A stretch of DNA of 22,435 nucleotides from IMG/VR virus record IMGVR_UViG_3300005264_000203, positions 1 through 22,435 of that record; one strand, 5' to 3'. Positions within the stretch are counted from its first letter, which is position 1; each line of letters starts with the position of its first letter. The notes under the pieces were generated by a model. That model was not told where the DNA came from, made no database searches, and saw only the letters and a program-made list of their open reading frames with translations. The position numbers were made by a program, and so were the translations under genes. Shown here piece by piece: positions 8,301-16,625 of the stretch. Origin of the DNA: a virus.

Positions 8301-8784
8301 AAAGTACACATTATTAATTTTATTAGGTTTAATTATAGGTATATTGTTGTCAATGGCGTTCTTTTTTTACGTACAAGAACCTGAAAAACAAATCATTTAC
8401 AGAGATAAAGTAGTCACAACTTGTGATACGTTATGGAAAATAGACACAATAAAAAATGTACAAATCGTTTCTAAGGGTGTTTTAAGGTTCGATACGTGTT
8501 TTGTATCGGATACGGTGGTTAAAATTGATTACAGTGAGTTTGTGAGCCAAATAGACACAGTTATACAGCCGTTTAATGACACAATTTCGATAATGTATAA
8601 ATATCCGGCTAATGAATTCAATATTTTTGTAGGTTATGCTTATCGGGAATATCCAGTAATCACAAGATTGGAAACAATTGAAATTATTAAACCTGAGGAA
8701 TGGTACCAAAGTCCGTATTTTCAGGCATTGACTGGCGTAGCTTTATTTTCTGGTGGCACTTATTTAGGGAGTCGGATTAAATGA
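8293..8784 (+). CDS. Membrane-anchored periplasmic protein, spanin-like
   Basis: The 163-residue protein has an N-terminal membrane segment (about 5-26) after a short basic start, a long polar middle (30-140) rich in Asp, Thr, Val and Ile that would lie in the periplasm, and a second moderately hydrophobic Gly-rich segment (143-158) before a basic tail. It follows the endolysin with an 8-base overlap, the position at which phages of Gram-negative hosts carry spanin (Rz-like) genes for outer membrane disruption. The sequence shows no coiled coil or lipobox, so the spanin role is inference from topology and place. It overlaps the next gene by ATGA. Confidence 0.5.
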   Translation: MIKKYTLLILLGLIIGILLSMAFFFYVQEPEKQIIYRDKVVTTCDTLWKIDTIKNVQIVSKGVLRFDTCFVSDTVVKIDYSEFVSQIDTVIQPFNDTISIMYKYPANEFNIFVGYAYREYPVITRLETIEIIKPEEWYQSPYFQALTGVALFSGGTYLGSRIK

Positions 8785-9446
8785 AAAACCTTGTAATTGT
8801 GGTTGCCGGTAATTTAAATTTACATGAAATGTATAGTGAAAATACAGATCATTATGATTGTGTTGTTATAGATTACACAAAAACACACGGAACTAAATAT
8901 CCATTAATTTATGATTATTTAATAAATCCATTGTCATTAGGTATTTTAGAATATGATAATTATTTATTCCTGGATGATGATATAGCGATAACGCATTATC
9001 AAATCAAGAACATATTTAAATATATGGATAAATTAAATTTAGACATTGGGAGTCCTTCGATAAATCCACAATACATGCAACATGAAATAATGTATTCAAA
9101 TCCTGAGCTTGTAATGCACGAATCAAATTGGGTTGAAATATGTGCTACATTCATGAGCAAAAAGGCATTAACCGACGTCATAGAGTCATTTAAGGTAAAT
9201 CGGTCAGGTTATGGTTTGCCTAATATTTGGAATATTAAGTATGGTTATAGTTTCACGATACTTGATGAAATTGAAGTAATACATACTAGACCGATGGCGT
9301 ATAATTCAGATTTATACTCACAGCTTGGTAATGGTTTGGATAGTGCGATGAAGGAATTTCGCGACGTGATAGATAGCTTGGTAAATGAGTGTGGAGTTGA
9401 AAAGATGCAATCAAAAGAAATATTAATTAAAAATCATTATAAGTAA
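8781..9446 (+). CDS. DUF707-like glycosyltransferase
   Basis: The 221-residue protein has a GT-A-like layout seen in DUF707 proteins: an N-terminal beta strand (MKNLVIVVAG), a strand ending in Tyr-Leu-Phe-Leu-Asp-Asp-Asp-Ile (61-68) with the metal/nucleotide-sugar binding DxD (Asp65-Asp67), then Asn-Trp-Val-Glu-Ile (116-120). Next come Ser-Gly-Tyr-Gly-Leu-Pro-Asn-Ile-Trp (142-150) and a late Val-Ile-His-Thr-Arg-Pro (166-171), the expected position of a second metal-binding His. It probably transfers a sugar. Targets could be host surface polysaccharide, a virion protein or phage DNA; the sequence does not say which. It lies between the spanin-like gene and small unknowns. Family call is by remembered motif order. 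Confidence 0.65.
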   Translation: MKNLVIVVAGNLNLHEMYSENTDHYDCVVIDYTKTHGTKYPLIYDYLINPLSLGILEYDNYLFLDDDIAITHYQIKNIFKYMDKLNLDIGSPSINPQYMQHEIMYSNPELVMHESNWVEICATFMSKKALTDVIESFKVNRSGYGLPNIWNIKYGYSFTILDEIEVIHTRPMAYNSDLYSQLGNGLDSAMKEFRDVIDSLVNECGVEKMQSKEILIKNHYK

Positions 9447-12306: not shown

Positions 12307-12431
12307 AGTCGCATTTTAGTTATGGTTCAGGTGTGATGGAGTATAATATTAGCATTCCTGATGTTTGCGAGCCAATAGTTCGAGGCTTAATGGATTCAAT
12401 ACAAGGATATGTAAGGAAACGATTTAAGTGA
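12237..12431 (+). pseudogene. Frame without a start codon, probably a frameshifted or decayed small gene
   Basis: In the -1 frame relative to the gene at 12022, a 64-residue reading runs from just after a TAA (12234-12236) to TGA 12429-12431. Its middle (Cys-Ile-Cys, His-Phe-Ser-Tyr-Gly-Ser-Gly, then Ile-Pro-Asp-Val-Cys) resembles small phage proteins with a FGYGS-type segment between Cys motifs. No ATG, GTG or TTG lies before the conserved part; the first is GTG/ATG at 12333-12338, which would leave only about 31 residues. It may be reached by a -1 shift from the gene above (around the A-rich stretch 12234-12243), or be a remnant. Confidence 0.4.
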
Positions 12432-12474
12432 TTAGTGGAAGAGATAGGATAATGTAATTAATGGATAAAACAAT

Positions 12475-14589
12475 ATGAAATTCCACTTTCCACAGGAACT
12501 ATTTAACGATTCGTATATTCCAATGCTGAATAACACGAGTCGTTATATGGTTTTATATGGTGGTGCTGGCTCTGGTAAGTCTGTATTTGCGGCTCAGAAA
12601 ATACTAATCAAAATGCTATCAAAGAATAAACATAAATTGCTATTTGTGAGAAAAGTACAAAGGACTATTAAAGGGTCTCAGATAGCTTTATTCCTGGATC
12701 TGTTAAACCAATATAATATATCGCGCCGGTTTACTTTCAGGACTTATGATTTATCTATTGAATGCGAGAACGGAAATAAAATCGTTTCAGCTGGTTTAGA
12801 TGATGTCGAAAAGTTAAAATCTATTCACGGTATAACTGGCACTTGGATTGAAGAGGCGACTGAGCTTGACAAGGAAGATTTCAATCAGTTAGACTTGAGA
12901 TTAAGAGGTAATACAGATAGTTATAAACAGCATATACTTAGCTTTAATCCAATTAATGACCAGCATTGGTTGAAGCGGAAATTCTTTGATAGTGATTGTG
13001 ATAATGCAATGGTACTTAGAACGACCTACAAGGATAACAGTTTTATTGACAATGAGTACAAAGCGTTATTAGAGAATCAAGAGGGCAGATTTCGCAATGT
13101 GTATACTTTGGGTGAGTGGGGTCAATCTGAAAGTTTAATTTACCCTAAGTACACAATATATGATGAATTGCCGGAAGATTCCGAAACGTTATACGGACTT
13201 GATTTTGGTTACGAGAATCCATCGGCGTTAGTTCAGGTGAATATAATCAACAAATCGATATATGCCAAAGAGTTATTGTATGAATCGAAATTAACACCAA
13301 GCGACTTAATAGCTAAATTAAAAGATTTAATCCCAAACAAATCGGATTACATAATTGCCGATAGTGCAGATCCGGCAATGATAGCAGAGATTGAACGTGA
13401 GGGATTCAATATAAGAGAGTGTTTAAAGGGGGCTGGTTCTGTTAATGCCGGTATTAACAAAGTGTTAGATCATAAATTGTATTTACATTGTGATAGTAAG
13501 AATCTTTTGAAAGAGATTCGAGGATACGAACGTAAACAGGATAGGAATGGGAATATTTTAGAAGAACCAGTCAAGCTGAATGATCACGCTTGTTTAATAG
13601 CTGGTACGCAAATTACTACATTGCAAGGTGATAAACCAATAGAAGATATTTCAATTGGTGACTATGTATTAACACGCAAAGGGTATAGGTGTGTAATGGA
13701 TTCGGCGTTAACGGGTTATGCCAATGAGTTATATAAATTAGATTATAAAGGTAATACATTGATAGGTACTGGAAATCACAACATAATAATACAGAATAAC
13801 GAAAAATCGTTAAAGGATTTGATGCAAAGCGATATTTTATGTGTATTGCAAGATAACGAATTGCATCAAGAAGTAAAGGGAGTATTATGTTGCAAGGATA
13901 TCCAGCAGATATTACGTTTAATGGTATCACATTCTAATGTTGCCCAAATGGTAAAAACGTATCTGACGGAAAATATTATAGAAGTAATTCCAGTAACTTT
14001 AAAGACGGCAATAGATACTTACACTATGTTATATGGAAATATTCAAATGGCGAAATACCCGAAGGCTGTCATATCCACCATAAAGACTTTAATGCTTTTG
14101 GTGACTCAGCTGACAATCTTGAATGCATTTCGCCGGGGAGGCATCTCGGATTACACGCTACGGCAAATGAATATTACGGTTCAGAAAAAAATCGGCAACG
14201 CCTTAGTAGTATCAGGGCACTTGCAATCAAATGGCATAAATCAAAAGAAGGTAAATCGTGGCATAGTAAACACGCAAAGAAACAAAAGTGCAATGAGCCC
14301 AAAACTATTTACAAGGTGTGTAAGCAACGCGGGGCGTCATATTGGGCAACTAAATTACGCAAAACATCCTCAAGGTTCTGTAGCAACAAATGCAGTAAAA
14401 CCCGCGGCAGTAAGATGCGAAGTGAAAGAACCAGTTCCTGTGTATAACCTAACAATTGAAGATCGGCATGAATACTATGCTAATGGTATTTTGGTCGCTA
14501 ATTGTGATAGTCTGCGGTATGCCGTTTACACATATTATAACAAAATAATAGCGAATGAATTTAAAATAATAGATTATAGGAAATTGTAA
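12475..14589 (+). CDS. terL: Terminase large subunit, intein-containing precursor
   Basis: The 704-residue precursor should splice to 400 residues, normal for TerL. The ATPase domain has Walker A GGAGSGKS (29-36), Walker B Thr-Trp-Ile-Glu-Glu (123-127) and the coupling motif Leu-Ser-Phe-Asn-Pro (155-159). The RNase H-like nuclease domain has Asp243 (GLDFGYENPSA) and Asp296 (IIADSADP), and the third acidic residue, Asp678, lies just after the intein in Cys-Asp-Ser-Leu-Arg-Tyr. Joining residue 372 to 677 restores the usual NDHAxDSLRY motif, which confirms the splice points. The protein cuts and pumps DNA into the prohead. The stop overlaps the portal start (TAATG). Confidence 0.95.
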   Translation: MKFHFPQELFNDSYIPMLNNTSRYMVLYGGAGSGKSVFAAQKILIKMLSKNKHKLLFVRKVQRTIKGSQIALFLDLLNQYNISRRFTFRTYDLSIECENGNKIVSAGLDDVEKLKSIHGITGTWIEEATELDKEDFNQLDLRLRGNTDSYKQHILSFNPINDQHWLKRKFFDSDCDNAMVLRTTYKDNSFIDNEYKALLENQEGRFRNVYTLGEWGQSESLIYPKYTIYDELPEDSETLYGLDFGYENPSALVQVNIINKSIYAKELLYESKLTPSDLIAKLKDLIPNKSDYIIADSADPAMIAEIEREGFNIRECLKGAGSVNAGINKVLDHKLYLHCDSKNLLKEIRGYERKQDRNGNILEEPVKLNDHACLIAGTQITTLQGDKPIEDISIGDYVLTRKGYRCVMDSALTGYANELYKLDYKGNTLIGTGNHNIIIQNNEKSLKDLMQSDILCVLQDNELHQEVKGVLCCKDIQQILRLMVSHSNVAQMVKTYLTENIIEVIPVTLKTAIDTYTMLYGNIQMAKYPKAVISTIKTLMLLVTQLTILNAFRRGGISDYTLRQMNITVQKKIGNALVVSGHLQSNGINQKKVNRGIVNTQRNKSAMSPKLFTRCVSNAGRHIGQLNYAKHPQGSVATNAVKPAAVRCEVKEPVPVYNLTIEDRHEYYANGILVANCDSLRYAVYTYYNKIIANEFKIIDYRKL
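13591..14502 (+). other. Intein in TerL (304 residues), Hint splicing domains in the terL frame
   Basis: Residues 373-676 of the precursor form a Hint-type intein. Block A begins with Cys373 (CLIAGTQI, then Ile-Glu-Asp-Ile-Ser-Ile-Gly-Asp-Tyr-Val). Block B contains TxxH (Thr432-Gly-Asn-His435). The C-terminal blocks are Val-Tyr-Asn-Leu-Thr-Ile-Glu-Asp, His-Glu-Tyr-Tyr-Ala-Asn-Gly-Ile-Leu-Val-Ala-Asn676, followed by the +1 Cys677. The residue before the terminal Asn is Ala rather than the usual His, a variation known in some inteins. The Hint halves are about 99 and 24 residues. The stretch between them (about residues 472-652) has no recognisable fold in this frame; it is where the HNH gene lies in another frame. 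Confidence 0.92.
13887..14447 (+). pseudogene. HNH homing endonuclease in the -1 frame inside the terL intein, one internal stop
   Basis: Read in the -1 frame relative to terL, this stretch encodes a recognisable HNH homing endonuclease. ATG 13887 follows a ribosome binding site (AAAGGGAG, 13875-13882). The protein has an N-terminal Phe-Asn-Gly-Ile-Thr-Phe (11-16), Tyr-Leu-His-Tyr-Val-Ile-Trp (44-50), Asn-Gly-Glu-Ile-Pro-Glu-Gly (54-60), His62-Ile-His64-His65-Lys-Asp, Asn77-Leu-Glu, and Arg-His86-Leu-Gly-Leu-His90. The C-terminal part has basic, Cys-containing segments (including Arg-Phe-Cys-Ser-Asn-Lys-Cys). Codon 17 is TAA (13935-13937) and no later start precedes the HNH core, so the gene is probably inactivated unless the stop is read through. 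Its ends fit closely between the two Hint halves of the intein. Confidence 0.85.
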
Positions 14590-16625
14590 TGAGTGTATTT
14601 AAGAGAATCACAAGTAAGTTATTCGATAGTGTTATTTCAGAACGCTTAAGGGATATTATCACATCAAGTAGTTATGCAAGTAGTCCGATAAGTAGTAAAG
14701 CTACGTTGAGTGATATATATGCGTCGGTTTATGCCTTTGCGTGTATAGAAAAGCGAGCTAAGGGCATTTCAGGTATTGAAACTAAGATAGGCAAGGCAAA
14801 GGGCGAAGAAGTAATTCAAATGGAACAGAAACACTGGCTAAGTAAGTTAATGGCACAGCCTAACAATGTAATGGGTGTCACATTTAGCGACATTAAGAAC
14901 CTACTGCAGCAATGGTTAGATACAACTGGAAATGCTTATTTGTATACTCCGTTAGACGGGGCGAAGTACCCTAATATATTGTGGGTTTTACCAGCGACAA
15001 CGGTTGAAGTTAAGTATGATGATAGAGCTATTTCACATTACGAAATAAATGGCTCAACTGGTATTAAGAAAATACCAACGGAAGAAATATTGCACCTGAG
15101 AACATACCAACCAAGTCTGAATGCATCGGCGCAATATGTTATGGGTACTCCTAAGTATATCAATGCAGTATCACAGCAGATACTGGCTGATCCTGAAACG
15201 ATTAAGTACTTCCGTGAGTTTATGTCACAAGATGCAATACCTCCATCAGTTTTAATGTCATCAAGTAATATACACGAATCGAAATGGGCGGTATTAAAAC
15301 AGCATTTAAAAGAAACAATCGGAACTCATGCACCATTGGCAATTTTAGAAGGTGGAATTAAGATCGAAAAATTGCCAGTTAGTGATACTATCTTAAAAGA
15401 TATTTACGGAAGTCATAAAGGTGGTTTACGTGAAAGTATTGCACGTGATATTTGCATGGCGTTTGAAACTCCATATCCATTGTTAACGGCTGAGTTTGCC
15501 AATAGGTCAGTTAGTGAAAATACGGACTTAAGATTTAGGCGTGATGTTGTAGATCCTTTGTTAACCAATATGGAACAATCATTTATACAACATTTCAGCC
15601 AGTGGGAATCAGATATAGTTATATACCATGACAAAATGTTATTAGTTGACTCAGATGTTGCATTAAAACAACAAGACATAGACTATAAATATGGCGTGAT
15701 AACACGCAACGAAGGCAGGAAATCACGAGCCCTGGAGCCTATCGATGGTGGTGATGAGTTGTTAATTCCGGCTGGTTTAGTGCCAATTAATGTGATATTA
15801 GAGCCTACGACACTGGAAAAGTTCTACAAATCGTGGGAAAATGGCATACATTGGAAGACTTTAGATACAATATTGAATCCATATAGGGAAAAAATAGGCA
15901 AAAAGATGAAAAAGTATTTCAATAAGTTAACTAAAAGGGTAATTGAGAATATCCAAGTAGGTGCTAAGGACTTAAAACGCGTTGAAATAAAGAGTGGTAT
16001 TGCTGAGGGAATGTTCTTGTTCGACTTTAATGAGTGGTATTCTGAGCTCTTGAAGGATTTAGATCCCGAATTTAGCCGTATGATTAAAGAGATATTACAG
16101 TTTGAGTTGGATACTTTAGGCTATGATGTTGGGTTAACTGAATTCGAGAAGGAACAAAGGAATGCATTAAGAGAATTAAATGCTAAAATGAGAACTCCAT
16201 TAAACACGGTTGCCCAAGAGATACGCAAAAAGATACAAGACGTGATAACAAGTAATCAGGGCGCAACCAAAACTGAGTTACTGCAATTGATCGAAGCTGA
16301 AATAAGCCATTTAAATAGCAGTGTTTATACAAAGTCACGTTCTGAAATGATAGCCACAACATCGGCAACTTTTGGAGCTGGTCAAACACAAAGCCAAATA
16401 TATAAACGCCTTGGATTTAATAAAGAATGGATTACACAACGCGACAAGAAGGTAAGAAAAACTCACAGATATGCTGATGGTCAAAAAGCTGACGATGCTG
16501 GTAATTTCCATATTGGCACGGATGTAATGAAACATCCGGCTGGTGGCTCGGAGGCTGCTGAAAATGTAAATTGTAGATGTTACACAAAAGCAACTGGAAG
16601 CCCTAATAGCTTGGTCAATTTTTAG
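14589..16625 (+). CDS. HK97-type portal protein fused to a MuF-like C-terminal domain
   Basis: The 678-residue protein is much longer than a typical portal. Residues 1 to about 400 match the HK97/lambda-like portal layout: the start of the clip/wing with Tyr-Ala-Ser-Val-Tyr-Ala-Phe-Ala-Cys-Ile, a Gly-Asn-Ala-Tyr-Leu core strand, Pro-Pro-Ser-Val-Leu (218-222 region), and Ile-Ala-Arg-Asp-Ile-Cys-Met-Ala-Phe helix. After a helical linker (about 420-570), residues about 590-668 resemble the Mu gpF head-morphogenesis domain: Glu-Met-Ile-Ala-Thr-Thr helix, Trp-Ile-Thr-Gln-Arg-Asp, Val-Arg-Lys-Thr-His, Pro-Ala-Gly-Gly-Ser, and Asn-Cys-Arg-Cys. The portal is the DNA entry gate of the head; MuF proteins sit near it and help head assembly. 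The start overlaps terL (TAATG). Confidence 0.88.
   Translation: MSVFKRITSKLFDSVISERLRDIITSSSYASSPISSKATLSDIYASVYAFACIEKRAKGISGIETKIGKAKGEEVIQMEQKHWLSKLMAQPNNVMGVTFSDIKNLLQQWLDTTGNAYLYTPLDGAKYPNILWVLPATTVEVKYDDRAISHYEINGSTGIKKIPTEEILHLRTYQPSLNASAQYVMGTPKYINAVSQQILADPETIKYFREFMSQDAIPPSVLMSSSNIHESKWAVLKQHLKETIGTHAPLAILEGGIKIEKLPVSDTILKDIYGSHKGGLRESIARDICMAFETPYPLLTAEFANRSVSENTDLRFRRDVVDPLLTNMEQSFIQHFSQWESDIVIYHDKMLLVDSDVALKQQDIDYKYGVITRNEGRKSRALEPIDGGDELLIPAGLVPINVILEPTTLEKFYKSWENGIHWKTLDTILNPYREKIGKKMKKYFNKLTKRVIENIQVGAKDLKRVEIKSGIAEGMFLFDFNEWYSELLKDLDPEFSRMIKEILQFELDTLGYDVGLTEFEKEQRNALRELNAKMRTPLNTVAQEIRKKIQDVITSNQGATKTELLQLIEAEISHLNSSVYTKSRSEMIATTSATFGAGQTQSQIYKRLGFNKEWITQRDKKVRKTHRYADGQKADDAGNFHIGTDVMKHPAGGSEAAENVNCRCYTKATGSPNSLVNF

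Follow-up and report, generated by a model that had tools for sequence, protein, structure and literature searches.

A phage TerL intein carrying a probable HNH endonuclease relic in an overlapping frame, and the widespread architecture to which it belongs

Large inteins are understood as splicing and endonuclease domains fused in one reading frame, and a penultimate histidine is usual in inteins but not essential. The endonuclease I-HmuI is encoded by a group I intron. In the fractured genes reportedly described by Dassa et al. in 2009, a free-standing endonuclease lies between the halves of a split intein. The inteins of mycobacteriophage TerL proteins are located in the ATPase domain (Kelley et al., 2016, PMC5050341). 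A close precedent for the out-of-frame insertion of an HNH gene, in this case without an intein, is the ShiLan domain, which together with the Pacc40 gp60 insertion is known from mycobacteriophage DNA methylases (Arsenault, Gosselin and Gogarten, 2025, PMC11855218).

The window analyzed here is a 22,435-nucleotide stretch of viral DNA (IMG/VR record IMGVR_UViG_3300005264_000203) harboring a terL ORF (12475-14589) that is uninterrupted throughout (Table 1). Intein residues 1-304 are encoded at 13591-14502 (CLIAGT...GILVAN^C), and the N-extein junction falls in the conserved nuclease motif DHA^CDSLRY, common to the relatives. Pfam identified Intein_splicing (1.2e-7) and Hint_2 (2e-5), and Foldseek of the Hint model retrieved gp41-1 and other inteins (best E 6e-6). 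Cys1, the C-terminal Asn followed by Cys, the Hint fold and the block B TxxH were all found, T60 and H63 being invariant in the A3 alignment; the penultimate residue is Ala (VAN), not His as in most relatives (VHN). The placement of two Hint halves in the terL frame by the preliminary description is confirmed by Pfam, AF2 and Foldseek.

Table 1. Coordinates of the features of the terL gene, its intein and the overlapping HNH frame in the window.
Feature	Position	Strand	Basis
TerL N-extein: ATPase and most of the nuclease domain, C-terminal end ...LNDHA	12475..13590	+	Pfam Terminase_3 7.7e-45
N-terminal Hint half of the intein: Cys1, block B T60-x-x-H63	13591..13854	+	Pfam Hint_2/Intein_splicing; AF2 pLDDT ~90
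terL-frame filler linker, intein residues 89-268: open, no fold	13855..14394	+	AF2 pLDDT <50 throughout
Weak SD-like AAAGGGAG preceding the probable ancestral HNH start	13875..13882	+	sequence
Probable HNH homing endonuclease relic, -1 frame: probable ancestral ATG 13887, stop 14445-14447	13887..14447	+	
TAA interrupting the probable HNH relic; no stop in the terL frame	13935..13937	+	
HNH_3 core LHYVIW...HIHHKD...DNLE	14013..14132	+	PF13392, residues 26-65 of the 13938 translation
Zinc-ribbon region C128...C152	14319..14393	+	conservation
C-terminal Hint half of the intein: blocks F/G, terminal Asn	14395..14502	+	Pfam, conservation, AF2
TerL C-extein CDSLRYAVYTYY... up to TAA 14587	14503..14589	+	

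The terL-frame filler between the Hint halves returned no significant domain of its own in a Pfam search. AF2 gave a mean pLDDT of 85 for the HNH frame, ~90 for the Hint halves and below 50 for the filler, which is accordingly predicted to be a disordered, unstructured linker, as the absence of a recognizable fold had already suggested in the preliminary description. The filler matches phrog_30251 and phrog_35162. Its signature NGIxxKK mirrors EWHKSEEG of the HNH, so that these two groups appear to be partly translation shadows of an HNH gene, a warning that some "protein families" may have such an origin.

In the -1 frame, positions 13938-14444 matched HNH_3 (PF13392, 1e-10; 41.5 bits against a curated cut-off of 24.8) and phrog_15471 (4e-19), which bears out the claim of an HNH encoded between the Hint halves in that frame. 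The endonuclease is hence not continuous with the splicing domain in a single frame. Across the HNH, the terL frame contains no stop and the third frame contains 26. Recoding of the HNH with the gene's own codon usage predicted ~4 terL-frame stops, with a probability of none of ~0.003 or less, in agreement with the openness noted earlier. The HNH ORF itself was found not to be open from ATG 13887 to its stop at 14445 as had been described, since a TAA (13935-13937) closes the frame after 16 codons, and no ATG, GTG or TTG was found in the HNH frame between this TAA and the catalytic core. ATG 13887 lies 63 codons upstream of the catalytic HH, within the family range, and probably served as the start codon before the gene was broken. 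The ribosome binding site proposed for it is present as AAAGGGAG but is a weak SD match.

A functional HNH in the phage, with the TAA being a sequencing error or bypassed, is unlikely. The catalytic H, N and H residues are retained and a single base could explain the TAA; however, there are three changes at conserved positions, two of which are 99% conserved (Asn56 of the HNH core to Asp, and the second zinc ligand Cys131 to Arg at 14328-14330), and these two replacements favor real decay over sequencing error. Judged from its sequence, the window copy is most likely a decayed relic and not a working gene. As the protein could not be made at full length as sequenced, homing belongs to the past for this copy, and we infer the mobility of the window's own intein from its family.

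Comparison of the HNH family profile with the PDB gave I-HmuI (1U3E, E 0.0045) as the only match, and Foldseek of the HNH model gave weak matches (best E 0.17; I-HmuI 0.27). HNH ORFs are common in phage introns and the nearest solved relative is intron-encoded, which would suit a self-splicing group I or II intron carrying the HNH ORF, the openness of the terL frame then being due to chance. Such an origin is almost certainly wrong, as an Rfam search of 12400-14700 at E up to 1 showed no match and no conserved intron RNA core, the intein splice residues and Hint fold are present, and the terL frame stays open in the relatives.

In tblastn searches, the intein frame and the HNH frame hit identical phage terL genes with an unchanged offset; both frames matched MT838676, Acinetobacter phage Highwayman and Tetrasphaera phage TJE1. 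The same layout of an HNH in an intein was found in Rhodobacteraceae phage MD07. With the HNH profile, 88 of the fetched loci, 75 of them distinct, were found to have an HNH ORF inside a large open ORF, and in 74 of the 75 distinct nested loci of this HNH-seeded set the terL frame was +1 relative to the HNH. Pfam analysis of 56 large ORFs identified Intein_splicing in 49, Hint_2 in 38, Terminase_6N in 34 and Terminase_3 in 26, and HNH_3 was above cut-off in all 30 family members checked. Those junctions that were located map to the motif DH^C..^(x)DAxRY of the TerL nuclease, or one residue further. An intact HNH ORF with a start codon, lacking in the window, is present in most relatives; these ORFs typically span 160-300 codons and are not continuous with the Hint halves.

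For an independent sample, IMG/VR was scanned for the DNA of the intein N-junction, DH(x)C-F/L-V-A-G-T, regardless of the endonuclease, a Hint-only alignment being too poorly conserved as a query. Among 98 non-identical loci, the HNH was present at the same offset in 70 and ~20 were mini-inteins of 124-146 residues at the same site, the remainder being truncated contigs or unresolved. None of the 98 had an HNH in frame or in the other alternative frame, within a search that extended 30 codons beyond the open terL frame and that loci with a broken terL frame could escape. The two samples have a few contigs in common, and no in-frame member of the same HNH family was found in the ~210 loci of both. 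The preliminary description had named related inteins with the same HNH in frame as evidence that would overturn it, and this check came out in its favor. Rather than a single oddity, the same layout at one TerL site in ~140 related phage inserts is, by sequence, a widespread architecture.

For the 75 nested HNHs, 394 terL-frame stops were expected by synonymous recoding with the extein codon usage of each locus and 207 by shuffling their own codons, against 0 observed; the sum is partly circular because "nested" in the HNH-seeded set means zero terL-frame stops. The junction-seeded sample and the contrast with free-standing genes are free of this circularity. The 25 free-standing HNH relatives contained 1-13 stops in the corresponding frame, observed numbers being close to those expected by shuffling. 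In close nested pairs, dN/dS was mostly 0.06-0.4 in the HNH frame and mostly 0.5-1.4 in the terL frame, with substitutions concentrated at HNH third positions, so that the analysis of both frames proposed in the preliminary description supports overprinting in the relatives. On these substitution patterns, the HNH frame in the relatives is under purifying selection, and the terL frame across it appears to be held mainly to staying stop-free. By recoding, a few stops per gene are expected in the family's usual frame, whereas the other frame usually holds 10-40. Far fewer changes would be needed to enter the usual frame, and this may be enough to account for its prevalence, with no special mechanism involved. 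For the window itself, a search of viral_contigs for close relatives of its terL gave a single distant locus (31%) and no empty site; its portal has matches at ~23% identity only, which leaves the Bacteroidota phage label of the preliminary description tentative. By eye, the portal ORF (14589-16625) appears to end in a fused MuF-like head morphogenesis domain, and a glycosyltransferase-like ORF with a DDD motif was noted by eye at 8781-9446.

An uninterrupted ATG, GTG or TTG 48-70 codons before the catalytic HH, mostly at 58-61, was present in 66 of 73 nested HNHs compared with 3.9% of control anchors. An SD match of at least 5 nt preceded 27 of these 66 starts compared with 4.4% of control starts. 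The start-to-HH distance of free-standing HNHs is similar. Independent initiation of the nested HNH is supported, though not proven, by these sequence signals. They also bear on programmed -1 frameshifting out of terL (e.g., at A-AAA-A, 13952-13956), by which Hint and HNH would be made as a fusion even in the window. It is true that the HNH lies in the -1 frame and a P-site A AAA slip would be possible 3' of TAA 13935; nevertheless, nearly all relatives have their own uninterrupted start at a conserved distance, often with an SD, the losses at conserved sites in the window HNH point to disuse, and one TerL intein (L096:371-2584) has its nested HNH in the opposite alternative frame (+2), with 0 stops against 10-17 expected. 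Frameshifting is therefore very unlikely, and the L096 arrangement points to a separate overprinting event. The decayed state of the window HNH (TAA 13935, zinc Cys and Asn lost) would also agree with a canonical in-frame HNH intein in which a compensating frameshift pair, or sequencing indels, left the HNH as dead out-of-frame sequence. This is extremely improbable, considering that the nested HNHs share their frame offset with one exception, are mostly intact with purifying selection and their own starts, form ORFs separate from the Hint halves, and are never in frame in two independent samples.

Evidence bearing on homing was obtained from relatives that have a sporadic distribution, empty sites and co-conversion. 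Many Acinetobacter phages have a continuous TerL with ~99% identity to the spliced TerL of Highwayman. Compared with the DNA of the inteinless Acba_21, that of Highwayman has 8 differences 5' of the intein, all within 163 bp, and 7 within 13 bp 3' of it; beyond these tracts, no difference was found in ~1.05 kb of terL 5' and ~1.3 kb 3'. Together with its near-identical inteinless relatives, Highwayman offers a system in which homing can be tested. Highwayman and BP10 had also been considered as an empty-site pair and were dropped, their TerLs not being close homologues. A second phage group contains both intein-bearing and empty TerLs, which interleave at 95-99% identity. L120 and L122, a near-identical empty-site pair from IMG/VR, differ at 13 positions in 1,344 bp of N-extein; all 13 fall within 84 bp of the intein, with 0 differences in the other 1,260 bp, and L130 and L131 differ at 5 positions, all within 115 bp. 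Differences confined to the neighborhood of the intein are the co-conversion signature that homing would be expected to leave in sequence. Ordinary recombination around an insert also gives such tracts; the confinement to 84-163 bp fits homing.

Several other states of the same system were observed. Free-standing HNHs of the nested family adjoin terL in many phages. In Brevundimonas phage Poludnitsa, a free-standing HNH ORF (2423-2995) between terL and portal is absent from the record annotation. In two loci (L087 and L098), terL carries a mini-intein and a free HNH follows next to it, and an inteinless sister locus (L097) has the same neighborhood, which looks like collaborative homing. In L014, L110 and L112, the two halves of a split TerL intein flank an HNH of the same family, in the order TerL with IntN, free HNH, and IntC with C-extein downstream. 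The first of these is Lactobacillus phage CL2, the record of which annotates TerL and HNH only; L107 and L093 are also split TerL inteins as judged by their N halves. Over the Hint, the mini-intein L301 and the overprinted L295 share 96% identity; L301 has lost 573 nt but retains the final HNH codons in the HNH frame, and the mini-intein L300 keeps both HNH ends around a 390-nt loss; both losses are multiples of three and in frame. GCAAAAAC is present at both ends of the deletion between L301 and L295. By these sequence remnants, the two mini-inteins are in-frame deletion derivatives of overprinted inteins, and loss therefore runs as well as gain. The proposal that a free homing gene invaded a mini-intein is made plausible by the free HNHs beside terL, beside a mini-intein and between split halves; at least two of the mini-inteins are products of deletion. 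On the HNH tree, ~8 changes between nested and free are needed, at least 6 being forced by starred branches, and a single HNH origin without later changes is rejected by this tree. The window, with its endonuclease apparently dead, filler kept and terL frame open, fits a stage before loss by in-frame deletion.

The architecture and its prevalence, selection, empty sites with co-conversion, decay and deletion derivatives, all established by sequence, are very likely explained by a widespread type of mobile TerL intein that uses one frame for splicing and another, overlapping one for homing. A TerL-Hint precursor would be made from the terL frame, and the Hint halves would excise themselves from it together with ~180 structureless residues and ligate the TerL nuclease domain. 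Translation of the central DNA in the -1 frame, beginning at a separate start codon, would give a free HNH_3 zinc-ribbon endonuclease that would cut intein-less terL at the conserved DHxxDAxRY codons, and the intein would be copied into the cut gene together with flanking sequence. Protein-level selection would act on the HNH frame, with the overlapping terL frame mainly avoiding stops. In the window, the HNH would have decayed by nonsense and missense changes while the terL frame stayed open, ahead of in-frame deletion. We infer splicing, HNH translation and DNA cutting in these loci.

It is also likely that inteins with a separately translated endonuclease from an overprinted frame form a widespread class in which splicing and homing are genetically uncoupled. 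If so, the host protein is unaffected when the endonuclease dies, disappears or is replaced, and the TerL-giving frame is constrained at the HNH chiefly to remain open. The related loci would then be states of one system: a free HNH beside terL, a mini-intein with an adjacent HNH, a split intein around an HNH, an overprinted intein, a decayed relic and a deletion-derived mini-intein, so that stages of the homing cycle become comparable at a single site. In many phages, an endonuclease gene placed out of frame, where the intein acts as a linker that tolerates it, would be an alternative to fusion. In this way, a free homing gene could become part of a mini-intein with no need for a fusion to evolve. 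The loci are also natural overlapping genes with directly measurable constraints.

A full-text literature search found no out-of-frame endonuclease inside inteins, a novelty conditional on the report on non-canonical actinobacteriophage inteins by Gosselin, Arsenault and Gogarten (bioRxiv 10.1101/2025.01.02.630785). On that condition, the view that the arrangement was undescribed stands for inteins, but not for out-of-frame HNH insertion as such, which is known without an intein from ShiLan (PMC11855218). With canonical large inteins, including those of mycobacteriophage TerL (PMC5050341), the loci share the Hint domain, the TerL host and the mid-intein position of the endonuclease, which is a fused domain there and overprinted here; the site also differs, being the ATPase domain in mycobacteriophages (PMC5050341) and the C-terminal nuclease motif DHxxDAxRY here. 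The HNH core is held in common with I-HmuI (1U3E), which comes from a group I intron, whereas the present HNH lies within intein coding sequence. The split loci L014, L110 and L112 resemble the fractured genes, while the window and the main family differ in that the terL frame continues through the HNH. Similar to the TerL inteins, ShiLan and Pacc40 combine a zinc-finger HNH out of frame with an insert open in the frame of the host gene, a disordered in-frame product and a sporadic distribution. Pacc40-like HNHs are also free-standing beside related methylases, as the HNHs here are beside terL (PMC11855218). Of the two marks of a ShiLan-type insertion, the out-of-frame HNH in an open insert is found here, and the absence of a self-splicing domain is not: without an intein or intron, the ShiLan/Pacc40 insert is thought to remain as a loop of the protein, whereas here a Hint splicing domain is present. 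The TerL system further differs from ShiLan/Pacc40 in its host protein, in its ~140 loci and in the mini- and split-intein forms that occur alongside.
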